Source: Erythrobacter oryzae
GTDB lineage: Bacteria > Pseudomonadota > Alphaproteobacteria > Sphingomonadales > Sphingomonadaceae
DNA length: 64,000 nt
Reading direction: 5' to 3'
NCBI RefSeq assembly: GCF_030271515.1
Contig: NZ_JASCXI010000005.1
Span: forward strand, 62,001-126,000
In this document: piece after piece, positions 3,868-15,435 of the stretch
Numbering within the stretch: position 1 is the first letter of the stretch
Layout: each line of letters begins with the position of its first letter
Program-made: the position numbers and the translations under genes
The notes under the pieces: model-generated
What the model saw: the letters and a program-made list of their open reading frames with translations, nothing else
Databases searched by the model: none
Told to the model about the DNA's origin: nothing

Positions 3868-4598
3868 GACGCCAGACCCGGGCAGCGCTTGAGCGCCGCC
3901 GCGCGCAAGGTGGCGGCGGCATTCGCGTCGCGCTGCTTCAGCCCGCCGATGGTCTGGCCCAGAAGCCTGCAGTCAAAGGGGGCGCCCCTCACCAAGCTGT
4001 CGGCGGCGATGGCGGCGAAGGCAGCGGGGGGCATGACCCGCGCTCCTCGCCGTAGGAAGGCCGCGTGCCAGCGCTCGCCCCCGACGACGATCGCCACCAG
4101 CGTATCGCGCGCCGCCGCGTCCCCGTTGCCGAACACCGCCGGGCCGAGTTCGAGCAGCAGCGCATCGGGGGTGGCCGTGCGCAGGAACAGCGCGGCATAG
4201 CGGCGCGCGGCCTCGGGGCGGTCTGCATTGGCGAGCGCAAGACGCAGCATCACTTCCTGCGCCGCGGGCTCGCGCCAGCCGCGACGGCCGGCAATCTGCA
4301 TGGTGCGCAGCGCGGCCTCCTCCTGACCGGCCTTGGCCTGTGCGGCGGCGAGCAGGATGAGGTTCTCGGCCGGCAGCGGGCGGCGCGTGACCAGCGTCTG
4401 CGCCTCGGCAAGCGCCTGCTGCGCGTCGCCGCCAGCCAGCGCCTCGCGGGTAACGACCATCTGTGCCTGATCGCGCAGCAGCGAAGGCACGGCCGGCACA
4501 AGGCCGGGCACGCTGCGCGCGCGCAGGTCGAGCTGCAATCCCGCCGTCAGCAGCGCAGCAAGGACCAGCGCGGTGAACCAGAGGATCCGGCCGATCAT
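3864..4598 (-). CDS. Membrane-anchored tetratricopeptide-like protein of the polysaccharide locus
   Basis: 244 residues from the ATG at 4598, which overlaps the stop of the upstream ligase gene (ATGA, 4595-4598). The N-terminus is a single uncleaved-looking hydrophobic segment (ILWFTALVLAALLTAGLQL). An alanine/leucine-rich helical region follows with TPR-like periodicity (for example GGDAQQALAEAQTLVTRRPL and ENLILLAAAQAKAGQEEAAL). No enzymatic motif is seen. Coupling to an O-antigen-ligase-like gene suggests a helper or scaffold in polysaccharide polymerisation or ligation at the inner membrane. The function is inferred from context only. Confidence 0.65.
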   Translation of the reverse strand: MIGRILWFTALVLAALLTAGLQLDLRARSVPGLVPAVPSLLRDQAQMVVTREALAGGDAQQALAEAQTLVTRRPLPAENLILLAAAQAKAGQEEAALRTMQIAGRRGWREPAAQEVMLRLALANADRPEAARRYAALFLRTATPDALLLELGPAVFGNGDAAARDTLVAIVVGGERWHAAFLRRGARVMPPAAFAAIAADSLVRGAPFDCRLLGQTIGGLKQRDANAAATLRAAALKRCPGLAS

Positions 4599-5950
4599 GC
4601 GTCCCTCCTTGCGCGCTCGCGCCCGGGTTCGCCCGCGGCGATGCGGGTCAGCAGCAGCAGCGCGAAGCCTGCGAGCGCGAGGATCGTCTGGTTGCGCAAG
4701 GGGTAGTCGGTGACCGATTGCAATGCGATCGCGAGCAGGAAGGCGCTGCCTGCCCAGGCAGCCCAATGCGCCCTCGATCCGCGCGCGCGCCAGCTCAGCC
4801 ACGCCAGCAGCACCAGCCACGCGGCCACCAGTGCAAGGCCGAGGGCTCCGGCCTCGATGGTGATCTCGATATAGTCGTTATGCGCGCGGCCCGCGCGGCG
4901 CAGGGTCAGGTTCTCGAGCGATTCGTCGATCTGGTAGAGCTCGTCGAAGGTGCCGATCCCGGCCCCCACCGGCCAGTGGCGACCGGCGGTGTAGACCGCA
5001 TCATCCCAGATGAAGCGACGGGGATCGTCCTTGGCTTCGAACCGCTCGAGCGTCGCGGCGATCCGGCCGGGCGCGGCGACCACCAGCGCGCCCGCGCCCA
5101 TCGCCACGAGGGCGAGCGCCCCGAGCCCGATCATTGCCGTGCGGGGTGCCGAGCCGCCCGGCATGCGCTGGGTCAGCGCACGCAGCACGCCGAGCAGCAC
5201 CGGGATCGCCGCCAGCACGAGCGCGGTGCGCGACTGGGTGAGCACCACCGCCAGCAGCAGCAGCGCGCAGGTCGCGAGGCGCGCGGGCATCACCACGGGA
5301 TGCGGGCGCCGCGCGGGAAGCAGCGCGGCAAGCCCGAGCGCGAAGGTCAGGAACAGGCCGGTCGAGTTGCGGTTGGCGAAGGTGCCAAGCAGGATCTGGC
5401 CCGGCTGCCGCGACCCGTAGAGTGTCGCCGCGTCGCTCCCGCCGGCCAGCTGTGCCGCGCCGATGAGCACCGTGACCAGCCCCAGTGCGACCACACCCCA
5501 GCCGAGGTCGATCAGGCGCTCGCGCGGGAGCGTCCAGCCTGCGCACAGCACGGCAAGCGGCGTGACGAGGGCGGTCGCGGCGAGCAGCGTGCGGCGCGGG
5601 TCAAAGCTGAAGGGCATCCACTGCGCGCTGTTGCCGGCGCCGGTCAGCGCCAGCGAGGCAGTGACGGGTGCGCGGCCGGGCAGGCTCTGCCACAGCGCTT
5701 CGGGAAGCGGGATGATCTGCGCCAGCGGCAGGGCAATCGAGAGGACGACGAGCGCGCGCAGCGCCAAGGGCGATTCGCGCCAGAATGCCGCGAAGGCCTC
5801 GCGGCGCATTGCCAGCACCGCGAGCGCGGTGAGCTGCACCGCGAGATTGGCCAGCGCTGCCCCGATGCCGCCGCCGCCGAACAGGAAGGCGACCAGCAGC
5901 AGCGCGGCCAATAGCAGGAAGGGGAGCCGGTCTGTGGCTTGCTGGGTCAC
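4595..5950 (-). CDS. O-antigen ligase/polymerase (Wzy/WaaL-like) membrane protein
   Basis: 451 residues with about ten to twelve hydrophobic segments. The large periplasmic loop typical of the Wzy_C/WaaL family lies between about residues 300 and 370 and contains the family hallmark RAGRAHNDYIEITIEAG (H-N-D-Y). Such proteins link or polymerise undecaprenyl-linked oligosaccharides at the periplasmic face. It is coupled to the downstream TPR-like gene. It begins shortly before a strong terminator that closes the small secreted-protein gene, so its own promoter probably lies in 5951-6011. A second family member lies at 27048, so polymerase and ligase roles may be divided between them. Confidence 0.8.
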   Translation of the reverse strand: MTQQATDRLPFLLLAALLLVAFLFGGGGIGAALANLAVQLTALAVLAMRREAFAAFWRESPLALRALVVLSIALPLAQIIPLPEALWQSLPGRAPVTASLALTGAGNSAQWMPFSFDPRRTLLAATALVTPLAVLCAGWTLPRERLIDLGWGVVALGLVTVLIGAAQLAGGSDAATLYGSRQPGQILLGTFANRNSTGLFLTFALGLAALLPARRPHPVVMPARLATCALLLLAVVLTQSRTALVLAAIPVLLGVLRALTQRMPGGSAPRTAMIGLGALALVAMGAGALVVAAPGRIAATLERFEAKDDPRRFIWDDAVYTAGRHWPVGAGIGTFDELYQIDESLENLTLRRAGRAHNDYIEITIEAGALGLALVAAWLVLLAWLSWRARGSRAHWAAWAGSAFLLAIALQSVTDYPLRNQTILALAGFALLLLTRIAAGEPGRERARRDA

Positions 5951-6086: not shown

Positions 6087-6377
6087 TCAGCAGGCGCCCG
6101 GCGAGGCGCAGCCGTTGTCGCCGCTGTCCGAGGCAACGACGATGCCGCCGATGATCACGGCAACCGCGACGCCGCCGATGAGCAGCGCGCTGCCGCCGGC
6201 GCCTTCTTCGGCCTGACCTTCACCGCCAGCCGCGCGGCCGAGGCCGGGGAGCGCGTTCGCGGTGCTGTAGGCCGCGGCGCTGTCAGCAGCGCGGGTGTTC
6301 GCCTGGGCCATGATCGGCGCGGCGACGAGGCCAAGCGCTGCGGTGGCAGCAAGCATGCGAGTCACGGTCTTGATCAT
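6087..6377 (-). CDS. Small secreted or membrane-anchored protein, function unknown
   Basis: 96 residues. A clear Sec signal peptide (MIKTVTRMLAATAALGLVAAPIMAQA) ends with an AQA cleavage site. A Gly/Ala/Glu-rich stretch follows, then a hydrophobic segment SALLIGGVAVAVIIGGIVVA, and a short tail NGCASPGAC with two cysteines. AAGGG upstream of the ATG is a reasonable ribosome-binding site, and a good terminator follows. It is on the same strand as the lasso cluster but separated from it by 155 bases. I see no catalytic motif. Its role in polysaccharide or envelope biology is a guess from position; it is not an obvious RiPP precursor because it carries a Sec signal. Confidence 0.6.
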   Translation of the reverse strand: MIKTVTRMLAATAALGLVAAPIMAQANTRAADSAAAYSTANALPGLGRAAGGEGQAEEGAGGSALLIGGVAVAVIIGGIVVASDSGDNGCASPGAC

Positions 6378-6532: not shown

Positions 6533-6976
6533 TCAGTCGGCCCTTGGCGCGGGGTCGGAAGCGTCAAGCAGGGGTTCGAAGCGGTCGATGTCGCCGCCCA
6601 GCAGGACCTGCGGGCCGCATACCAGCCATGCATGGGCCTCGAAGCTGCCGTCGTCGTGCTTGGCGGTGCCGACCCTGATTTCGCTCGCGATTCGCCGCCG
6701 AATCAGCATCTTCTGACCGGCCAACGCCTGCACCAGACAATCGGCCCGCCACGGCAGACGCCGCGACATCCATGTGATTGCCCAGGCGACCTCTGCACCT
6801 TGTCGCCCCGCGTGCGCTCCGCCCGGGGAGAGCCCCCCGGCAGCGGCGGCCTCGTGGTTACGCTGCTGGACGTCTGCCGGCTTGGTGCGGTGCAGCACGA
6901 ATCGGGCCGCAGCGAGCGCCAGCAGTGCCTCGGCCGCCAGCGCGAGCTTTCCGATGGTGGACGAGGGCCGCGTCAT
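6533..6976 (-). CDS. Lasso peptide leader protease B2 (transglutaminase-like)
   Basis: 147 residues. It matches the lasso-peptide B2 family: a helical N-terminus, then a papain/transglutaminase-like core with Cys80 in RADCLVQALAGQKMLIRR and His115 in SFEAHAWLVCG, the usual catalytic Cys-His pair. B2 removes the leader peptide C-terminal to the conserved Thr-x pair, freeing the core amine for cyclisation. It is the last gene of the lasso operon, 24 bases after the RRE protein (B1). The B protein is therefore split into two polypeptides, as in most clusters outside the microcin J25 type. Confidence 0.88.
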   Translation of the reverse strand: MTRPSSTIGKLALAAEALLALAAARFVLHRTKPADVQQRNHEAAAAGGLSPGGAHAGRQGAEVAWAITWMSRRLPWRADCLVQALAGQKMLIRRRIASEIRVGTAKHDDGSFEAHAWLVCGPQVLLGGDIDRFEPLLDASDPAPRAD

Positions 6977-7000
6977 GCCCCGGTCATGACCGCCGCCGGA

Positions 7001-7279
7001 TCAGGCCGGTTCGGCCAGATCGTTGCTGCGCAGCTCCTCGAGCAGCGCGCGCAGATCGGCGTTGAGCTGTTCGGGCTCGACGTCATAGGCCTCGAGCACC
7101 GCCGCGCAGATCGAGCTCGGCGGGTCGCCCGCCTTCAGCGCGTCCCACAGCCGGGCGCCGATCGGGTCGAGGCCGAAATAGGTGCCGTTGCCCAGATGCA
7201 GGATCACGGTCTCGTCGGCGACCGCATTGGCAATCGCCTGATCGCTGATGCGCCAACGGGCTTCCAGGGTATCGGACAC
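7001..7279 (-). CDS. Lasso peptide RRE protein B1 (PqqD-like)
   Basis: 92 residues from the GTG at 7279, preceded by GGAGGAG at ideal spacing; the longer frame upstream is rejected because it runs into the methyltransferase gene. The PqqD-like fold is recognisable from DETVILHLGNGTYFGLDPIG near residues 22-41 and a helical second half with LWDALKAG. In lasso systems this RiPP recognition element binds the leader, mainly its YxxP motif, and delivers the precursor to B2. The precursor at 9463-9609 carries exactly that motif, which supports the assignment. Confidence 0.87.
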   Translation of the reverse strand: MSDTLEARWRISDQAIANAVADETVILHLGNGTYFGLDPIGARLWDALKAGDPPSSICAAVLEAYDVEPEQLNADLRALLEELRSNDLAEPA

Positions 7280-7313
7280 AGTATCTCCTCCGAATATGAC
7301 GGTCAGGCCGGCC

Positions 7314-8477
7314 TCAGCCGCGGTTGTAGCGGCCCAGGCACAGTGCGGCATGGTCGAGTGCCGCCTGATGGGTCGGCAAATGCTCAGGGTGGCGTTCCTG
7401 CAACGTCCGGGCAATTTCGTCCAGCGTTCTTCCATCGCCCACCAGCGCGAGGCAATCGCGATCGATCATCATCTGGCTGTTCAATGCAGGGGTGTTCAGA
7501 TCTGAGGCACGTGCAAGCGCCTTGGGCGAGAACATGTGGCTGAGGAAGGTCGATTGCCGCACGCTGGGCCCACGCGGCGTGCCGGCGGCGTCCAGCACCT
7601 GCCAGTCCCAGGTCCACAGATAGTCATCGCCCTGCAGGATGCCCCGCAGCCGCACTGTCACCCGGTCACCCGCGGCGAGGCGCGGGGCGTTGTCGAGCGC
7701 GAGGAACATCTGGCCATAGACCAGCTCGGGCTCGCCCGGCGCGTTGGAATAGGTCAGGCCCTCGGCGATTTCGGCGTCGAACCAGATCAGCAGGCCATCG
7801 ACCGCGCCCCCCCGCTCTGCGACGAGTTCGACCGTCGCATCGAGATTGGGGTCGGTGATGGTCCTGAAGTCGATCACCGCCAGTTCCGCCGCAGCCGACA
7901 TCAGGTCTTCGGGCCGCAGATAGGCCTTGCGCTCCTCGTTGACGGCGAACCGGTAGCCGACCGACAGATCGAGGCCGAAATTGTTGGTCAGCCACGGCCG
8001 GATCGTGGAGCGGCGATTGCTGACCCACTGCGCCAGCGCGATCCGCAGGGTGTCACGCATCGGCAGCAAGGTGCCGCCGGGCGCCAGCAGCCGCGCGCGC
8101 GCGTCGGCCAGCGTGGCGACGTGGTGCTGGTAGAGCGAGATCGAGCCCCGGCAGTCGGACACGATCACATCGGCCTTGGTCTCGGGCGTGTAGTTGGTCG
8201 AGATGTCGCGGACCACGGTGATCCGGTCGGCAAACCCGTTCGCCTTCGCCATCGGCATCAGCTGCTCGATGCTGGGGTCGGGCTCGATCGCGATGACGTG
8301 GCCGGCGCCATATTTGCACGCCAGCAGGGCGAACACGCCGAAGCCCGCGCCCAGATCGATCACCGTGCAACCGGGTGTGATCGCGGCGCGCATCGCCTCG
8401 GCATAGATCCCCATGCGCGGCTCGCATTCGATCATGTGGCCGTAGTCGACAACGGAGTAACCGGCAGGGCGGAACAT
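7314..8477 (-). CDS. PRMT-like SAM-dependent methyltransferase of the lasso cluster
   Basis: 387 residues. SAM motif I is VIDLGAGFGVFALLACKYGA (39-58) with the acidic ribose-binding residue at E66 in AIEPD. The order of elements follows protein arginine methyltransferases, including an N-terminal SVVDYGHMI segment resembling the PRMT YxxxY helix and a beta-barrel C-terminal half. At the double-E loop, SDCRGSISLYQ has Asp108 and Gln117 where PRMTs have two glutamates nine residues apart. The last 80 residues form an extra helical domain. Position between kinase and B1 makes it a probable tailoring enzyme of the lasso peptide. Its acceptor (Arg side chain, C-terminal carboxylate or other) is unknown. 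Confidence 0.75.
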   Translation of the reverse strand: MFRPAGYSVVDYGHMIECEPRMGIYAEAMRAAITPGCTVIDLGAGFGVFALLACKYGAGHVIAIEPDPSIEQLMPMAKANGFADRITVVRDISTNYTPETKADVIVSDCRGSISLYQHHVATLADARARLLAPGGTLLPMRDTLRIALAQWVSNRRSTIRPWLTNNFGLDLSVGYRFAVNEERKAYLRPEDLMSAAAELAVIDFRTITDPNLDATVELVAERGGAVDGLLIWFDAEIAEGLTYSNAPGEPELVYGQMFLALDNAPRLAAGDRVTVRLRGILQGDDYLWTWDWQVLDAAGTPRGPSVRQSTFLSHMFSPKALARASDLNTPALNSQMMIDRDCLALVGDGRTLDEIARTLQERHPEHLPTHQAALDHAALCLGRYNRG

Positions 8478-8505
8478 GGGTCAGAACCTTTTCGGGAGTG
8501 CCGCT

Positions 8506-9342
8506 TTATGCGGGCGGGGAGAGGTGGGCCAGCGCGGCAAGCGCCTGCGCGCGAACCTCGCCCAGCTGGCCAAAATCATGCGGATAGGTCAGTTCGTAGC
8601 AGGGGACGGCCGACACGACCCGTGCGGCCTTGGCCATCCTGTGCATCGCACCGGTCTGGTCATTGGGATCGAAGGCGAAGCTGTTTTCAACGAGGCCGAA
8701 GCAGGCATCGGAGGGGTAGGTTGTCTCCAGCGTGATCGCATCGCCTTCGGACAGAAAGAAGACCGCGCCGAGTGGAAATTGTTCGGGCGCGGGGCTGCCG
8801 AATTCGGGCGCCGCGACATGGAGCTTGTCCGAATAGAACGCCATCGGCGAGGTCTCGACGCTTCGGTCGAACACCTGCTCGATCGATCGGCGATAGAGCC
8901 GCAGGCTGGGATAGACGGCCTCGCCATGCAGCACGCCGCCCTTGTCGCTGATGACGATGGCATCATCGCCGAGCAGCCTGTGCCCGATCCCGTGCATGCT
9001 GGCAGCGAAGGTGGACTTGCCCGATCCCGTCCCGCCGAGAAAGGCGACCAGGTGCGAGCCGACGACGATCGAACTGCCGTGCAGCACGAGCGTGCCGTCA
9101 GCCGCGATGATGCGCGGGGCGATGTGGTCGTCAAGCAGGTGGTCGATGGTGTCCTGATCGGCCTCGGGCCGGGCGGCGACCAGCCGGACCGAGCGGTCTT
9201 CGAAGCTCACGACAAACCGCGCCAAGCTACCGAAGTCGAGGGTGAACACCCCGGGAGCGGTCTGCTCGACCGCGGGACCGAATTCCTCGGCATCGCCGAG
9301 GGCCTGCACCCCTGTCTTTGCGCCGGCCGAGTCGGACGACAC
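8506..9342 (-). CDS. HPr-kinase-like lasso peptide kinase
   Basis: 278 residues from the GTG at 9342, which has AGGA seven bases upstream. An in-frame GTG at 9447 would force translation through a hairpin at 9374-9405 and has no usable ribosome-binding site. The protein is HprK-like: LHGSSIVVGSHLVAFLGG leads into the P-loop GGTGSGKST (103-111) and LLGDDAIVI supplies the acidic pair (126-127). Proteins of this type in lasso clusters (for example that of paeninodin) phosphorylate a serine at the C-terminus of the precursor. The precursor here ends in MVRP without a terminal Ser, so the target must differ or the enzyme has another role. Confidence 0.8.
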   Translation of the reverse strand: MSSDSAGAKTGVQALGDAEEFGPAVEQTAPGVFTLDFGSLARFVVSFEDRSVRLVAARPEADQDTIDHLLDDHIAPRIIAADGTLVLHGSSIVVGSHLVAFLGGTGSGKSTFAASMHGIGHRLLGDDAIVISDKGGVLHGEAVYPSLRLYRRSIEQVFDRSVETSPMAFYSDKLHVAAPEFGSPAPEQFPLGAVFFLSEGDAITLETTYPSDACFGLVENSFAFDPNDQTGAMHRMAKAARVVSAVPCYELTYPHDFGQLGEVRAQALAALAHLSPPA

Positions 9343-9373
9343 GGCTATGTCCTGAGACACCGCCCATGCAGAA

Positions 9374-9405
9374 AGTCGGCCCGACCCGAAAGGGCGGGGC
9401 CGACT
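9374..9405 (-). terminator. Hairpin between lasso precursor and kinase genes (attenuator-like)
   Basis: Nine-base perfect arms AGTCGGCCC/GGGCCGACT (9374-9382 and 9397-9405) enclose an inner CCC-GAAA-GGG stem-loop. On the minus strand the stem is followed only by TTTC, so termination would be partial. It lies 57 bases after the precursor stop codon and before the kinase start. Similar placement elsewhere lets the precursor be made in excess over its enzymes, or protects the precursor mRNA end. Confidence 0.7.
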
Positions 9406-9462
9406 ATTTGGAGCACCAGAATCAACCGATTCAATCAGTTGCAGCACACCTCAATCGATGTG

Positions 9463-9609
9463 TTACGGGCGCACCATCATGAGACCCATCATGGTGGGCG
9501 TTTCGACGGCGTTGATGCTGCCCGATGCAGTCAGCTGCGAGAAGCCGCCATAGACGGCCAGCTTCGGCTGCGCGTAGGGGGCCTTGGCGGTCTTTTCCTG
9601 CTTCGACAT
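9463..9609 (-). CDS. Lasso peptide precursor (A)
   Basis: 48 residues from the ATG at 9609, with GGAG (complement of 9616-9619) at six-base spacing; the gene begins 12 bases after the cyclase stop. The leader (1-28) matches the YxxPxLxxxGxxxxxTx consensus exactly, with Tyr12, Pro15, Leu17, Gly21 and Thr27 at the penultimate leader position. The predicted core is residues 29-48, SGSINAVETPTMMGLMMVRP. Ser1 can form a macrolactam with Glu8, the only acidic residue in the core, giving an 8-residue ring and a 12-residue tail. The tail is methionine-rich (four Met) with one Arg at position 19 and a terminal Pro. All neighbours are lasso enzymes, which makes this assignment strong although the gene is short. 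Confidence 0.93.
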   Translation of the reverse strand: MSKQEKTAKAPYAQPKLAVYGGFSQLTASGSINAVETPTMMGLMMVRP

Positions 9610-9621
9610 CGTGGTCTCCAA

Positions 9622-11514
9622 TCAATCCCGGGAGGTGTTAAATTTCGCTAACCAGAAAGCCAGATAAATCAGATCGGTCTCGGATACAACCCCATCTTCG
9701 CTGCACCGCAGCGCAAATTCGCCTCCTTCGGGCGCATTCCTGACATATCTAGCAAGATTTGAAGAAGCCGAATCATCAAGCACTTGCGGCGCAGTTCCAA
9801 GGAAAATTTCGACGAATCGGAACCCGACATGGTCGCGTCCGAGCTTCCACCGCACCGAATCGGGCAGGCGGCCTGCCATGCTGCGGCGCATGATGAACTT
9901 GGCCCAGCCCCGGCCGTGCAATTGTTCCGGAGGGAGGGTCAGGCAAAACTCCAGCACCCGGACATCGAGAAACGGATCGCGCGGCTCTATCCCGATCGCG
10001 CCGGCGACACGGTCGTACCTTTCTCGCGCGACAATGATGTAGGGGTGCAGCATGCGGCGGGCCTGGTTGGCCTGATCGTTGCTCTGCCCGACTGTTATGT
10101 GGCGCATATTGGCGCGTCGCCGCGCCGGCATGTCGACCCTTGCGGCAAGGTTGGGAGCGACCATGCTGCGGGCGGCGAGCCTTTCCACCTCGGCCTCCTG
10201 CCAGGTTGCCCGCCTTCGCTCGCGCAGCGATTCGGGGACCAGCAGCCGCCGCGCGGCGGACATGAGGGCGGGCAGCGCCTTGGCTTCATCCCCCCAGTAA
10301 CGCTCCTGCGCGAGAGCATCGCGCACAGCCGCCCGCACCTCGCCGCGGCGCAGATGGTGGGCCACCATGTCGCCGGTCGCCAGCGTCGTATCACCGCCCA
10401 CTCCGTCGAGCATGACCCTGATCCCTGCGCGCCGCGCTGCAACATAGATCGACCGGCTGAACACCATGCCGACGTCGAAAGGATCGCTCTGCCCCGTGGT
10501 CAGGCGCATCACCTCTTCGCGGAAGCTCTCGGCATCCTCGGGCGAGACGAGCTGCGGGGCGATGTGCGGAATGTGCGCCACCGACGCGCGCACGCAGGCG
10601 CTTTCCGGGCAGGCCGGATCGGTGTCGATCCCGGAAAAGGTCCTGAGCGGCGGTGCACCCGCTTCGTGCAGCAGCGCGGCGGCGATCGCGGTGACCGTGC
10701 CCGAATCCATCCCGCCCGACAGCATCGCACCGACCGGAGCCGGCGAGCGCAGCCGGGCGCGCACGGCCTCGGTAAAGACGTCGAGGAAGGCGGCGTCATA
10801 TTCGGCGTCGCTGGCGCGGTGGATCACCGGGCCGGGCGCGGCCAGTTCCCAGTAGCGCCATTGGCGCAGGGCCCCGTCCTCGATCACCAGCGCATGGGCC
10901 GGCGGTAGGCGGCTGATGCACTCGAAGAAGGTCGAGACATGGTCGATCGCCTCGAGCTGGTCGATGAAGTCCGCGACCCGCGCCTCGTTGATGCGATCCG
11001 GCACTTCGGCATGGACCGCAAGCGCTTCGGGATCGGTGGCGCAGGCGAACAGGCGGCCCGGCGCGAAATGGTAGGTCAGCTGCCGCATCCCGACCTTGTC
11101 GCGCGCGCACAGCAGCCGGTGCGCGCGCGGGTCCCACAGCGCGAAGGCGAAATCGCCGAGCAGGCGCGGGAGGCAGTCGTAGCCCCAGCGCAGGTAGGCG
11201 CAGACGATCAGCTCGCCGTCGCCCACCACCCGCTCGCCGGATGTCAGGCCGAGATCGGCCATCAGCTCGGCGCGGTTGTCGAGCCGGACGTGGGCGGTGA
11301 TGATGCAGCCGCTGCCGGGATGGCGATACGGCATGGGCTCGACCACAGCTTCGGGCGTGGTCGCATTGAGCGCATGGCCGAAGGCTGCAGGGCCATCGGC
11401 GTCGAGGGCCGATCCGTCTGGCCCGCGCGCTTCCATCACAGCGAGGACGGGGGCAAGGCTGGCGGTCTCGGCGGGTGCGCCATTGAGGCGCAGCACGGCG
11501 CAAATGCCGCTCAT
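9622..11514 (-). CDS. Lasso cyclase C (asparagine-synthetase-like)
   Basis: 630 residues. It has a glutaminase-like N-terminal domain (1-210) and an ATP-dependent synthetase domain with the PP-loop LSGGMDSGT (265-273). Lasso C proteins adenylate the ring Glu/Asp side chain and close the macrolactam with the freed core amine. The N-terminus reads MSGICAV rather than MCGI, so the nucleophilic Cys2 needed for glutamine hydrolysis is absent (a Cys sits at position 5). That is expected for an enzyme using an internal amine instead of ammonia. It starts 1 base after the end of the exporter gene and is followed by the precursor. Confidence 0.92.
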   Translation of the reverse strand: MSGICAVLRLNGAPAETASLAPVLAVMEARGPDGSALDADGPAAFGHALNATTPEAVVEPMPYRHPGSGCIITAHVRLDNRAELMADLGLTSGERVVGDGELIVCAYLRWGYDCLPRLLGDFAFALWDPRAHRLLCARDKVGMRQLTYHFAPGRLFACATDPEALAVHAEVPDRINEARVADFIDQLEAIDHVSTFFECISRLPPAHALVIEDGALRQWRYWELAAPGPVIHRASDAEYDAAFLDVFTEAVRARLRSPAPVGAMLSGGMDSGTVTAIAAALLHEAGAPPLRTFSGIDTDPACPESACVRASVAHIPHIAPQLVSPEDAESFREEVMRLTTGQSDPFDVGMVFSRSIYVAARRAGIRVMLDGVGGDTTLATGDMVAHHLRRGEVRAAVRDALAQERYWGDEAKALPALMSAARRLLVPESLRERRRATWQEAEVERLAARSMVAPNLAARVDMPARRRANMRHITVGQSNDQANQARRMLHPYIIVARERYDRVAGAIGIEPRDPFLDVRVLEFCLTLPPEQLHGRGWAKFIMRRSMAGRLPDSVRWKLGRDHVGFRFVEIFLGTAPQVLDDSASSNLARYVRNAPEGGEFALRCSEDGVVSETDLIYLAFWLAKFNTSRD

Positions 11515-11515
11515 G

Positions 11516-13171
11516 TCAGGCGTCCTGTCCCACCACGCTCCAGCCGTCGGGAGAGAGCCGGATGATGCGGTCGGCGAGCGCGAGGCTGGCGGGGCGGTGG
11601 GTGATTAGGATGACGGTACGGCCTGACAGAGCGCGCACGCATTCCTCGACGAAAGCTGCCTCGCCCTCGAGGTCGTACATGCTGGTCGCCTCGTCGAAGA
11701 TGTAGACCGGTGGATCGCGCAGCAGCGCACGGGCGAGGGCGATGCGCTGGCGTTGCCCGCCCGACAGGCGCACCCCGTCATCGCCGATCCGGGTGTCCAT
11801 CCCCTCGGGCAGCTGGCTGATGAAATCCCACGCCTGAGCCTGCCGCGCGGCGCGCTCGAGGCTGGCCGCATCGGGATCGGGCAGGCCGAAGGCGATATTC
11901 TCGCGGATCGTCCCGTCGACCAGCAGCGCCCGCTGCGGCACGACCCCGAACTGGCGGCGTAGCGCCTTCACGTCGAGGCTCGTGATGTCGGCCCCGTCGA
12001 GCGTGATGCGCCCCGCCTGCGGCTCGTAGAACCGCAGCAGCAGGTTCACGAGCGTGGACTTGCCGACCCCGTTCGGCCCGGTGAGCGCAATGGTCTCGCC
12101 CGGGGCGATGTTGAGGCTGAACCCCGACAGCACCGGCGGGCGGCCGGGATAGGCGAAATCCACCGCTTCGAACCCGATCGCGCCCTGCGCGCGGCCCGGG
12201 TCGCCCGTCTGGCGATACCCCGCCTCTCCGGGCAGCGCGAGCACCGCCTCCAGCCGCTCCATCGCCCCGCGCGCCAGCTGATAGGCGCCGTAGGTGCCCG
12301 CAAGGCTGCCGACCGGGCGGGTCAGCAGCGCGGCATAAAACAGGAAGGCAAAGATCTCGCCCGGACTGCGGTTGCCGCTGGCGAGCGACGACGTGCCGGC
12401 GACCAGAATGCCGATCGCGGCCAGCCCGGCAATCAAGGTGACGACCGGGCCGATGAAGGCTGTGATGCGCGCCTGCGCCAGCTTCATCTGCCGGGCCTTC
12501 TCGATCGCGGCGCGGTATCGCGCGAAGCGCTCATCCTCGACCGCGAAGGCCTTGATCGCGGGCAGCATCTCGAGATCGCATTCGGCCTGCCACAGCACCT
12601 CGACCTCGGCATCGCGCACGCTGCGCCCCATGGTGCGCAGGCGCCGGGCGAGCAGCCGCATGCCGAGATAGAACAGCGGGATCAGCACCGGCACCACCAG
12701 CGCCATCACCGGGTCGATCAGGAACATCAGCACCACCGCGCCGCCTGCGGTCATCAGCATCGCGGGCAATTGCGCCAGCGTGGCGGTGAGGAAGGTGCTG
12801 AGGGTCTGCACCTCGTAGCTCATCAGCGACAGCAGGTCGCCCTGCCGGCTGGTGTCGTGGAAGGACACCGGCATTGCATGGATATGGGCATAGGCATCGC
12901 GGCGCAGCCCGGCGAGGATCTGGCCCGTTGCCTGCTCCGAGACGATGGTGACGAGGATGCTGGCGCCCGTCATCGCCACCAGCGCGATCGTCAGCAGCAC
13001 GAGCGTGGTGTCGAGGTCGATCGCCGCCTCGCCCACGATCGCTGCCGCCAGTTGCGCCGCCAGCCACGGCATCGCCAGAGTCGCCAGCGAGCCGAGCAGC
13101 GACAGGCCGCCGATCACGGCAAGGCTGCGTGCATGCTGCCGCGCCCAGGGAAGCATGGCGGTCAGCCCCAT
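11516..13171 (-). CDS. Lasso peptide ABC exporter D
   Basis: 551 residues from the ATG at 13171, one base after the upstream stop; a longer frame would overlap the nucleotidyltransferase. It is a half-transporter with an N-terminal six-helix membrane domain (about 1-310) and a C-terminal nucleotide-binding domain. Walker A is TGPNGVGKST, the signature is LSGGQRQRIALARAL, and Walker B is VYIFDEATS. In lasso clusters the D protein exports the mature peptide and gives self-immunity. No N-terminal C39 peptidase domain is present, consistent with leader removal by the separate B2 protein. Confidence 0.9.
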   Translation of the reverse strand: MGLTAMLPWARQHARSLAVIGGLSLLGSLATLAMPWLAAQLAAAIVGEAAIDLDTTLVLLTIALVAMTGASILVTIVSEQATGQILAGLRRDAYAHIHAMPVSFHDTSRQGDLLSLMSYEVQTLSTFLTATLAQLPAMLMTAGGAVVLMFLIDPVMALVVPVLIPLFYLGMRLLARRLRTMGRSVRDAEVEVLWQAECDLEMLPAIKAFAVEDERFARYRAAIEKARQMKLAQARITAFIGPVVTLIAGLAAIGILVAGTSSLASGNRSPGEIFAFLFYAALLTRPVGSLAGTYGAYQLARGAMERLEAVLALPGEAGYRQTGDPGRAQGAIGFEAVDFAYPGRPPVLSGFSLNIAPGETIALTGPNGVGKSTLVNLLLRFYEPQAGRITLDGADITSLDVKALRRQFGVVPQRALLVDGTIRENIAFGLPDPDAASLERAARQAQAWDFISQLPEGMDTRIGDDGVRLSGGQRQRIALARALLRDPPVYIFDEATSMYDLEGEAAFVEECVRALSGRTVILITHRPASLALADRIIRLSPDGWSVVGQDA

Positions 13172-13172
13172 G

Positions 13173-14321
13173 TCAGGTGCGATGCTGCGGACGGCGGCCG
13201 AGCGCCCCGAGGATGCGCTTGGCCTGCAGGGCGTAAAGCGGCAGGTGCGTTGCATCGGGGAAGCGCTCGTGGAGCACTTCGGCGCCGGGAAAGACGGTAT
13301 AGGCGATCAGCGCCAGCTTGTCGCGCAAGGTCGGGCTGGCGGACAGATCGAGCCGCAGCCGCGCCGCACCCGAAAGCGGGCCGAGGCACCGCGCCAGCCG
13401 CTCGTCGCCGGGATGGGCGGCGAGCGCTTCTCGGATTGCCGGCGGCACGGCTGTCTCCAGCGCCCCGGCCGCGAAGTCGAGCGCCGAGAGCACGAACGGC
13501 GCGGTGCCGCTGGCGATCGCGGTGTCGAGCAGGTGCTGCCAGTCGCCGGGCGTGAAGGCGGCGCACAGCAGGTGGACGTCGAGCGCCCAGATCAGCCGGT
13601 CACCCTCGAACAGCTTGCGCCGGTCCGACTGGTATCCGAACACCCCGTGCGAGGCGCGGTTGATCGCCACCAGCACCAGATTGTCAGGCCCGGCGATCGC
13701 GCGCGCCTGGGGTGCAAGCCGCGTCAGCGCTGCGGTGCGCGTGCCGATTCCGCCGCGCTCCAGACATTGCGCGATCATCGGGCTGGCATTGATGCGCCAG
13801 TGCAGATCGAAGGAATGGGTGAAGCCCATCGGACATTCGCTGGCCCAGTTTTCCTGTAGCGGACGGGCATCCCCCAGCGGGCGGAAGCCGGCTTCGCGCA
13901 GCACCCGCCGCACTGCGGGCTTCTGCCGGTCGTCGAGCAAGACGTCACTGTCGCCCCGTCGCCGCATCGCGGCATCGGGATAGACCGAATAGGCGAGCGC
14001 CGTCCCCTTGGTCACCGCGCTGGCGATCCCGGCCGCATCGAGGCTGGCGATCATGCGCGAGCAGACCTGCCGATGGCCCAATTCCCAGAAGCTCTGCGCG
14101 CGCGCCTCTGCGCGGACCTGCTCGCCCACTGCGGGCCAGGCCGCCAGCCGGTCGCCCCCTTCCAGCAGGACCCGCGAGATGCCGTGGAAGGCGATCCGGC
14201 GGAAAAGCCTGTCCGCAAATGCTTCGTCCTGCGGCCATTGTTCGGGCCAGACCGGCAGGCCTTCCCCTTTGACGGCGCAGCGGACGGCGACAGCAAGGAA
14301 GCGGTCGATGGCTTCGTTCAT
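13173..14321 (-). CDS. Nucleotidyltransferase-family protein, first gene of the lasso operon
   Basis: 382 residues from the ATG at 14321 (MNEAIDRF); the open frame upstream lacks a credible start and covers the rml-side intergenic region. It resembles the NTP_transf_5 group found in lasso and other RiPP clusters, with [12 protein letters not shown] near residues 155-166 as the Gly-Asp-Ser-Asp metal-binding motif and a VTKGTALAY segment before it. Such proteins often accompany kinases in phosphorylating lasso clusters, where they are proposed to modify the peptide, but no reaction is settled. It is tightly coupled to the exporter gene. Confidence 0.78.
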
Positions 14322-14538: not shown

Positions 14539-15435
14539 ATGCAGATCCAAACGAAGCGGCGCGGGATCATTCTGGCGGGGGGCTCGGGCACCAGACTGTA
14601 TCCGCTGACGCGCGGCGTGTCGAAGCAGCTGATGCCGATCTACGACAAGCCGATGATCTACTACCCGCTCAGCACGCTGATGCTGGCCGGGATCCGCGAA
14701 ATCCTGATCATCACCACCCCCGAAGACGCCGCCCAGTTCAAGCGTGTGCTGGGCGATGGTTCGGACTTCGGGGTGGAGCTGTCCTATGAAGTCCAGCCCC
14801 GGCCCGAGGGGCTCGCGCAGGCGTTCCATATCGGCGCGGATTTCGTCAAGGGCGGGCCGAGCGCGCTGATCCTCGGCGACAATATCTTCTACGGCCACGG
14901 CCTGCCGCAGCTGCTGCAAAGCGCCAATGCGCGCGAGAGCGGGGCCACGGTGTTCGCCTATCGGGTGAACGACCCGCAGGCCTTCGGCGTGGTCGAATTC
15001 GATGCCGGCGGCAAGGCCGTCTCGATCGAGGAAAAGCCCAAGGTCCCCAAGTCGAACTATGCGGTGACCGGCCTCTATTTCTACGACGAGACCGTGGCCG
15101 ATCGCGCCCGCGAGCTTGCGCCTTCGCCGCGCGGCGAGCTGGAGATCACCGATTTGAACCGCCTCTATCTCGATGAAGGCACCATGTCGGTCGAGATCAT
15201 GGGGCGCGGTTTCGCCTGGCTCGACACCGGCACCCATGCCTCGCTGCTCGATGCTGCGACTTACGTGCGCATCACCGAGGAACGGCAGGGCCTCAAGATC
15301 TGCTGCCCCGAGGAAATCGCGCTGCGGCAGGGCTTCATCACGGCGGGCCGCCTGCGCGAAATCGCCGAGCCGCTGCGCAAGTCGGGCTATGGCGAATATC
15401 TCCTCAAACTGCTCGACCAGCCGGTGCTGCCGTGA
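14539..15435 (+). CDS. rfbA: Glucose-1-phosphate thymidylyltransferase
   Basis: 298 residues from the ATG at 14539, with AAAAGG upstream at somewhat long spacing. The pyrophosphorylase signature [18 protein letters not shown] (14-31) and [18 protein letters not shown] are diagnostic of RmlA. It makes dTDP-glucose from dTTP and glucose-1-phosphate, the first step to dTDP-L-rhamnose. It is the first of four overlapping genes in the order A-C-D-B. It is divergent from the lasso operon across 217 bases (14322-14538), in which I find TTGACC at 14465 but no convincing -10 box. Confidence 0.95.

Follow-up and report, generated by a model that had tools for sequence, protein, structure and literature searches.

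Parts of the locus described here have counterparts in published lasso-peptide systems, which are cited by PMC accession and represented by excerpts of the papers. The window, i.e., the whole stretch of 64,000 nucleotides analyzed from Erythrobacter oryzae (contig NZ_JASCXI010000005.1, positions 62,001 to 126,000), encodes A, B1, B2, C, D, a kinase and N together, as does the bsf cluster of Bradymonas sediminis; the kinase motif is identical and at constant spacing, and both cores have a ring Ser3 and no C-terminal Ser (PMC10368454). The bsf cluster differs from the window in gene order and setting and in having Ile instead of Thr at leader position -2, and no methyltransferase is reported in the excerpt (PMC10368454). 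HprK-like kinases of split-B lasso clusters are also represented by paeninodin, ThcoK and SyanK, but their target is the C-terminal Ser while the core in the window ends in Pro (PMC8498205, PMC9266682). The pseudomycoidin (psm) cluster combines a kinase with N as the window does, but its C-terminal Ser phosphate bears a hexose and the excerpt mentions no methyltransferase, whereas the window has one and lacks the C-terminal Ser (PMC9266682).

Tailoring methyltransferases have been described for lasso peptides as well. StspM, which acts on the linear precursor, and the lassomycin enzyme are O-methyltransferases of another kind, for which the excerpts mention no kinase alongside (PMC9266682, PMC8498205), while LihM and TceM are PIMT homologues forming aspartimide on the ring Asp of the threaded peptide, and the core in the window is free of Asp (PMC9266682, PMC13352647). 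LopH and longipeptin A resemble the window by product, the product proposed here being a RiPP Met sulfonium, and in the excerpt the enzyme for the longipeptin A sulfonium is itself only proposed (PMC11285071). No lasso cluster with a PRMT-type enzyme, no lasso-Wzy link and no lasso-S74 link was found in open-licence PMC text, outside which most subscription papers lie, nor did that open-licence text yield a description of a kinase combined with this methyltransferase in lasso clusters. An excerpt of PMC12670498 mentions lasso clusters from soil in which genes occur for 'phospho- or methyltransferases, where present', so others have met such tailoring genes.

Positions 6533 to 14321 of the window held a complete split-B lasso-peptide cluster of eight intact minus-strand genes, located in a sugar-polymer (exopolysaccharide, EPS) locus. 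A check of the sequence found all eight ORFs open at the coordinates of an earlier interpretation made from the letters alone (the sequence-only reading). The genes and their flanks were as follows:

4595 to 5950, minus strand: Wzy_C protein (O-antigen ligase/polymerase) at one edge of the cassette site (PF04932, 62.8 bits, cut-off 31.7)
6087 to 6377, minus strand: small protein whose start resembles a signal peptide, conserved beside Wzy, also at sites without a lasso cassette
6533 to 6976, minus strand: B2, leader peptidase (lasso_biosyn_B2 NF033537, 87.5 bits, cut-off 33)
7001 to 7279, minus strand: B1, leader-binding RRE, PqqD-like (PqqD PF05402, 67.2 bits, cut-off 23.4)
7314 to 8477, minus strand: MT, PRMT-fold methyltransferase (PrmA, 29.9 bits, cut-off 22; PRMT_C, 26.1, just below 27)
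8506 to 9447, minus strand: K, HprK-like peptide kinase (by motif; HprK_rel_A, 44.8 bits, far below the cut-off of 200)
9463 to 9609, minus strand: A, precursor of 48 aa (by sequence; same plan in relatives)
9622 to 11514, minus strand: C, lasso macrolactam cyclase (Asn_synthase, 135.2 bits, cut-off 21)
11516 to 13171, minus strand: D, ABC exporter (ABC_membrane, 137.4 bits, cut-off 28; ABC_tran, 123.1 bits)
13173 to 14321, minus strand: N, NTP_transf_5 protein, by name a homologue of PsmN/BsfN (PF14907, 83.0 bits, cut-off 31.2)
14539 to 15435, plus strand: rmlA (named after the sequence-only reading), other edge of the site, followed by rmlC and rmlD; conserved flank

Open reading frames, family scores and the invariant motifs of B2 and C bore out the earlier claim of intact core functions. 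Residues C80, H115 and D129, which we take to be the Cys-His-Asp triad of the leader peptidase, were invariant in nine B2 proteins, as were S266-G-G-x-D270-S271 (SGGxDS) in nine C proteins and G123-D124-x-D126 in seven N proteins. The top NCBIfam model for C was the lasso cyclase NF033535 (431 bits, below the curated cut-off of 525), and B1 scored 45.5 bits against the lasso-specific PqqD model, below its cut-off of 80. The coordinates agreed with a B function split into B1 and B2 and with a precursor lying mid-cluster, after N, D and C, and motif and fold comparisons supported the presence of both a kinase and a PRMT-fold methyltransferase, all as had been read from the letters. Gene order was the same across 14 window-type clusters, save L034 (cut by a contig end), L037 (no N found) and L040 (no D found). 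An alternative in-frame start of D is possible at 13255.

Precursor A displayed the attributes by which lasso precursors are recognized, namely a YxxPxL leader (9526 to 9609), Thr at -2 and an acid within core positions 7 to 9. Its predicted core, SGSINAVETPTMMGLMMVRP (9466 to 9525), would carry a Ser1-Glu8 macrolactam ring, with tail Met at positions 12, 13, 16 and 17, a penultimate Arg19 and the ending ...VRP. Although A stayed below threshold against the lasso leader model (14.5, cut-off 19), a short ORF of the same plan (leader YxxPxLxxxGxxxLTx, core xG[ST]xxxxE) was found in 14 of 14 window-type clusters, so the precursor is more than a chance ORF; lack of a conserved precursor at this position in relatives had been named earlier as a possible refutation.

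Core Ser3 is the predicted target of K. The K motif (H123 G138 G141 G143 K144 S145 D161 D162) is that of BsfK at a constant offset of 25, and BsfK phosphorylates ring Ser3 according to the excerpt of PMC10368454. Position 3 was Ser or Thr in all 19 distinct cores of the window's group; the C-terminal Ser that is the PadeK-type target was absent from the 18 of them other than L007. A third modification may come from N, a possibility left aside in the sequence-only reading.

The methyltransferase MT kept the fold of PRMTs (Rossmann domain and barrel; PRMT1 match, E 2.8e-20) and lost their arginine clamp. It shares this fold with PRMT1, PRMT2 and bacterial PRMT-like paralogues, but lacks their double-Glu and THW loops and has a C-terminal helical extension (about residues 318 to 387), the structure model showing only helices from 318 on. 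The SE..E of PRMT1 was SD..Q in the window; in the alignment, the first clamp Glu was Asp in all lasso-type rows, whereas both Glu were kept in nine of nine paralogues. The THW loop was replaced by VYG in the window, in a stretch where the alignment is weak. The extension had been suspected by eye to be a fused RRE, which was rejected on an hhalign probability against B1 of at most 1.2% and on the all-helical model; the control is rough, as the B1 profile held one over-long ORF.

Across 65 clusters, MT went with tail Met and not with Arg. The comparison comprised the window's group (G1, 14 clusters) and a sister group (G2, 27 clusters with MT and 24 without), the tail being defined as the residues after the ring acid. 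Tail Met occurred in 38 of 41 clusters with MT, versus one of 24 without. The exceptions were L037 and L040 (window-type MT, no tail Met), L216 (Met in the ring only) and L219 (tail Met, no MT). Duplicate genomes were counted once (L031/L140, L032/L007, L033/L142, L035/L146, L036/L148, L008/L040), and L230 was in the table and absent from the trees. Left out of the table were L149, L159 and L196 (no precursor found), several contig pieces that lacked a usable C row (L153, L170 and L171, all of which follow the MT-Met rule, plus L228 and L229), two satellites (L157 and L161, both of which fit), L038, and the fourth cassette type. L038 was considered as a further case for its 50% identical MT; it was not counted, since this MT lies in a different cluster of kinase, B1, B2 and C and the sole precursor candidate had no acid at 7 to 9.

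On the cyclase and kinase trees, MT changed at least seven times, only two of the seven changes being forced by starred branches. Tail Met was lacking in six of seven MT-less lineages, as read from a printed tree in which several forks are open; these included L220, whose MT had lost about 93 residues together with the catalytic loop and which was scored as MT-less owing to this deletion. In a Pagel-type test with a midpoint root, Met ranked first of the 17 residues that vary (LRT 21.5, nominal p 2.6e-4), followed by Arg (nominal p 0.067), while independent-pair tests had too few pairs for significance.

These distributions bear on three other acceptors for MT. N-methylation of the penultimate tail Arg (Arg19 in the window) would suit the PRMT fold and the Arg found among the last three residues of 17 of 18 distinct G1 cores (17 of 19 with L007), and the C-terminal RRP of the first relatives had suggested it. 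It was dropped as a general rule after the sister-group cores, in which tail Arg was present in 22 of 24 clusters without MT and in only six of 27 with MT; it was absent from the other 21 and from two of 14 G1 clusters, and L040 and L007 have MT and no tail Arg. With the double-Glu and THW also lost, and Q in the window at the second Glu of PRMT1, an Arg acceptor, if 'PRMT-like' was so meant in the sequence-only reading, was not upheld and is unlikely. Formation of a C-terminal methyl ester, as by StspM, with Met-rich tails merely accompanying the same cluster types, would accommodate L037, L040 and L216 because every core has a carboxylate, and C-terminal O-methylation is a lasso modification with loose substrate choice in the excerpts of PMC9266682 and PMC8498205. 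This gives no reason for the missing tail Met in the MT-less lineages, and MT is PRMT-like while StspM, compared by its description in those excerpts, was modelled after a different kind of O-methyltransferase; we judge the ester rather improbable, if less so than the Arg target. Least probable of all, and in our view quite unlikely, is methylation of Ser/Thr or of a phosphate or phosphosugar that K and N would produce. All 41 MT-bearing clusters had K, and Arg110, invariant in G1 enzymes within the lost clamp, could bind an anion; but K was also present in all 24 MT-less clusters, Arg110 is missing from G2 enzymes, L037 has MT with no N found, and the Met pattern is not predicted. The same 41 of 41 count removed the rarity that had been attached to the kinase and methyltransferase pair.

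The proposed methylation of tail Met by MT was further echoed by satellite pairs of precursor and MT in genomes G432 and G493, apart from their MT-less main cassettes. The satellite cores had Met and no Arg-tail, whereas the main cores ended in Arg-Phe. The main cores of both genomes do hold one ring Met. The contrast between clusters with and without MT exists only in G2, since in G1 MT was present in 14 of 14 clusters and tail Arg in 12 of 14. As the MT tree, which carries a long-branch warning, did not group the MTs of G1 and G2 in a single clade separate from other paralogues, the MT chemistry of G2 may not carry over to the window. The Met reading of the window MT is an extrapolation from the sister group, whose MT need not have a common origin with that of the window.

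The cluster is not a one-off insertion. Its position between a Wzy-like gene and rmlA was sustained by the Wzy_C family score and the conserved rmlA flank, so that of the earlier 'inserted among EPS genes' the EPS setting stood and the single insertion did not. Tallied by hand, lasso cassettes of four types adjoined the same Wzy gene in 50 of 60 genus genomes, these 60 being the ones with a best E of at most 6.9e-98 among 85 with a match, a cut chosen after the list was seen. A search for a plasmid link gave one weak PLSDB match. Whether the site is a mere recombination hot spot, with lasso cassettes unrelated to the polysaccharide, appeared evenly balanced: the four types, the cassette-free sites and the remnants of single genes, all at one place, resemble the outcome of cassette exchange and decay, and for L037 and L040 the stretches read contained no match to rml or Wzy, but the occupancy is high for a neutral place, and in the sister genus g15 both Wzy and rmlA matches lay beside the cassette in 11 of 16 loci read. 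The hot-spot reading is compatible with the tailoring pathway proposed for K and MT.

Taken as a whole, the sequence-only reading was supported on the cluster, its order, the enzyme pair and the EPS setting, and was not supported on the Arg acceptor (if so meant), the rarity and the single insertion. We give slightly less than even credence to a working lasso cluster whose peptide probably undergoes two tailoring steps ahead of knotting, namely phosphorylation of Ser3 and S-methylation of tail Met. B1 would bind the leader, K would place a phosphate on core Ser3, and MT would methylate at least one tail Met (12, 13, 16 or 17), creating a fixed positive sulfonium charge, for which the Met sulfonium of longipeptin A is a precedent in the excerpt of PMC11285071. 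B2 would then cleave after LTA, C would close the ring between the Ser1 amine and Glu8, with the tail enclosed, and D would export the product; N may decorate the phosphate with a sugar or a nucleotide. The monoisotopic masses calculated for the product are 2102.9985 for the lasso, 2182.9648 with phosphate, and m/z 2118.0214 for the methyl-sulfonium cation. G2 relatives without MT have tail Arg in place of Met, as if one charge substituted for the other. More tentatively, a PRMT-fold enzyme may have given up Arg to become a peptidyl-Met S-methyltransferase that places sulfonium cations in the tail threaded through the ring of a phosphorylated lasso peptide (phosphate on the ring), with relatives that lost MT encoding tail Arg instead; the peptide cassette, and at times a detached pair of precursor and MT, would move as one unit in exchanges at a fixed EPS site.

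If MT methylates Met, it would become a strong candidate for catalyzing a RiPP modification for which the excerpt on LopH only proposes an enzyme (PMC11285071), and it would show the PRMT fold switching substrate. Relatives provide natural controls: clusters bearing or lacking MT, one MT with a deletion, and two genomes that carry a satellite precursor and MT. With four interchangeable lasso cassettes at the EPS site, a connection of these peptides to the cell surface becomes testable. Should the target be something other than Met, lasso clusters that pair a kinase with a PRMT-fold methyltransferase would still appear to form a common, undescribed group in the genus and its relatives.

All eight genes that the sequence-only reading had assigned to the lasso-peptide cluster (minus strand, 6533..14321) were confirmed as open frames on that strand and at the coordinates claimed. 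Family searches bore out the identities proposed for the peptidase B2 (87.5 bits, cut-off 33), the RRE protein B1 (67.2 bits with PqqD, cut-off 23.4), the cyclase C (431 bits with the lasso cyclase model, below the curated 525; Asn_synthase 135.2), the exporter D and the nucleotidyltransferase N (83.0 bits, cut-off 31.2). The kinase K scored 44.8 bits with the HprK-type model (cut-off 200) and is a distant relative of HprK. The precursor A, 48 aa long (MSKQEKTAKAPYAQPKLAVYGGFSQLTA / SGSINAVETPTMMGLMMVRP), reached a sub-threshold 14.5 with the lasso leader model (threshold 19), and the conserved precursor expected in relatives was found there with the same plan and position.

Among 397 family genomes, the PRMT-fold methyltransferase (MT) was matched at E <= 1e-40 in 3 genomes, and at E <= 1.4e-137 a window-type (G1) MT was detected in 11 of 114 genus genomes, the window's own being counted in both cases. 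Of the 11 loci that a GTDB contig scan with an alignment of three MTs returned, eight were G1 clusters, one was L038 and two lacked lasso genes. The order N-D-C-A-K-MT-B1-B2 was kept in genus and GTDB clusters, except that a contig end cut L034 short, N was not found in L037 and D was not found in L040. Gly2, Ser/Thr3 and Glu8 were present in all 18 distinct G1 cores and in the L007 core, Glu8 fitting the requirement of an 8-residue ring. In some G1 clusters an unannotated extra 0.6-0.9 kb separated MT from B1 (L036 11162-12062, L145 9106-9715). L038 (5032-11563) held a G1-type MT inside another kind of kinase/B1/B2/C/D cluster, with a precursor candidate ending GTSGTKGQGMVSMS (tail Met present, ring acid absent). 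The Pseudomonas cluster L037 encoded two precursors (9683-9853 and 8430-8588); one of the predicted cores has Asn as its first residue, a start also reported for metanodin (PMC12670498).

Nine K proteins shared invariant H123, G138, G141, G143, K144, S145, D161 and D162, each 25 positions away from its counterpart in the BsfK motif H148...D187. BsfK phosphorylates Ser3 in the BsfA ring, and the bsf cluster also contains N (PMC10368454). Position 3 was likewise the conserved hydroxyl residue of G1 cores (Ser in the window), whereas paeninodin-type substrates have a C-terminal Ser, which the window core lacks. PsmN, annotated like the window's N, leads to a hexose on the phosphate in pseudomycoidin (PMC9266682). 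Methylation of the phosphate or of Ser/Thr by MT remains a rival to the Met chemistry proposed below.

The best solved relatives of MT (METHYLTRANSFERASE) by sequence were PRMTs (PRMT1, E 2.8e-20), which made up nearly all of the 60 matches listed from 79 at E <= 0.1. Its AlphaFold model (10 sequences, mean pLDDT 81.9) matched PRMT2 (E 1.4e-23) and PRMT1 (4.1e-22) among the top 50 listed. The arginine clamp of PRMTs is not preserved, PRMT1 SEWMGY...YE being aligned to SDCRGS...YQ in the window; the E153Q change abolishes PRMT1 activity. The second clamp position was Q, E or G across G1 enzymes, enzymes of the sister group (G2) read CDHxGxxGxDYG at the clamp loop, and both clamp Glu were kept in 9/9 PRMT-like paralogues compared, two from the window's genome. 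Besides MT, the window's genome encodes two PRMT-like proteins with the double-Glu loop (L009:9808-10893 and an ORF matched at L010:8543-9301). On the MT tree, for which the program warned of long branches, G1, G2 and paralogues were each confined to one side of a branch, and no G1+G2 clade stood apart from the paralogues; MT may thus have been recruited separately in the two groups.

Kinase matches at E <= 1e-8 were found in 61 of the 397 family genomes; 40 of these loci were taken, then further ones from the genus and from a sister genus, g15, where 21/40 genomes held a C relative. G2 clusters, with core pattern GSxxxxxD, displayed the layout C-A-(MT)-K-B1 facing D and N, with MT present or absent. 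Some lasso precursors of g15 carried Peptidase_S74, an endosialidase chaperone domain, fused at their C-terminal end:

Peptidase_S74 fusions (cut-off 22 bits)
L073:9413-9790, 29.3 bits
L076:5904-6284, 33.9 bits
L075:8515-8910, 27.3 bits

Similar fusions were judged from an SDxRxKxN motif after the core in L218, L221, L222, L224, L225 and L227. Peptidase_S74 proteins are self-cleaving, and self-cleavage would fix the C-terminus of the lasso core; a literature search joining lasso peptides with Peptidase_S74 found no paper.

Methionine in the tail, the core residues after the ring acid, followed MT. Leaving g15 aside, Met occurred in 18/18 distinct G2 cores with MT (21.8% of residues; Arg 1.2%) and in 1/16 without (0.4%), 15 of these 16 having Arg within the last three residues. 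G1 cores combined Met (16/18) with Arg within the last three residues (17/18). Over 65 clusters, g15 included, tail Met was present in 38/41 with MT (G1 12/14, G2 26/27) versus 1/24 without, and tail Arg in 12/14 G1, 6/27 G2 with MT and 22/24 without. L037, L040, L216 and L219 broke the rule. In L220, MT had a deletion of about residues 101-193, including the catalytic loop, and the core (GSGGTRGDGQLGQTRL) lacked Met. The main cassettes of genomes G432 and G493 lacked MT and encoded a core (GSGTMFRDGAVNNSRF) with one ring Met and a tail Arg; elsewhere in each genome an MT came after a solitary precursor, whose core was GSANVGQDGALGMTMNP or GSANRGSDGALGMTMNP. These satellite pairs, with G2-type MT, lay distant from the main cassette (L157:7749-9167 in G493, L161:7619-9038 in G432).

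MT changes (INDEPENDENCE) numbered at least 7 on the cyclase tree and likewise on the kinase tree, starred branches forcing only 2 (64-row tree) or 3 (earlier 48-row tree, mixture model). Among independent pairs on the 48-row tree, Met tracked MT in 2.8/3 on average, pairs too few for significance to be reached. The 64-row tree as read showed seven MT-less lineages, six without tail Met, the exception being L219. In a Pagel-type likelihood test Met came first among 17 residues (LRT 21.5, nominal p 2.6e-4), and Arg, whose association ran the other way, came second (8.8, p 0.067).

The chemistry fitting this pattern most simply is S-methylation of a tail Met by MT, because the resulting fixed positive charge would take the place of Arg in MT-less relatives and the arginine clamp would not be needed. 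Methylation of Arg remains a rival, as does esterification of the core C-terminus. S-methylation by the window's own MT is an extrapolation, since G1 has no MT-less member and has Met together with Arg. The RiPP longipeptin A contains a Met sulfonium like that proposed here, with LopH as its proposed enzyme (PMC11285071). Lasso clusters with kinase and N, and lasso methyltransferases of other folds, are already known. The accessible text of the literature searched, reviews included, yielded neither a PRMT-fold enzyme in a lasso cluster nor a kinase-plus-methyltransferase lasso product, in line with the first reading, which knew of no described phosphorylated and methylated combination.

All 11 genus G1 clusters sat between rmlA (14539..15435, plus strand, in the window) and a small protein followed by Wzy (4595..5950, minus strand). 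The small protein (6087-6377) has a signal-peptide-like start, is conserved with or without the lasso cassette and had no Pfam match over cut-off. Wzy was matched in 85 genus genomes; the 60 whose best E was <= 6.9e-98 were taken to have the same Wzy and were counted. Four sites were unreadable (three contig ends, one stretch without rmlA), three held no lasso genes (rmlA-Wzy gap about 0.83 kb in G413 and G435, 2.7 kb in G399) and three held a single one: B1 in G483 (L191), or D in G490 (L190) and G430 (L206), where it might be retained for immunity. The other 50 carried G1 (11), G2 with MT (14), G2 without MT (18) or a fourth type (7). In some of these 50 the search did not find every gene, for example B2 in G456 and G405 and C in G444; L149 (G444) and L159 (G405) seemed to be decaying cassettes, a clear precursor being found in neither. 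Among 16 g15 loci, Wzy (40-45% identical) and rmlA were both matched in 11, Wzy only in three and neither in two. The sequence-only reading had the cluster inserted among exopolysaccharide genes; that setting held, but a one-off insertion did not, as 50 of the 60 Wzy genomes hold cassettes there. The survey of site occupancy instead points to a lasso cassette that is resident at this exopolysaccharide site and exchangeable.
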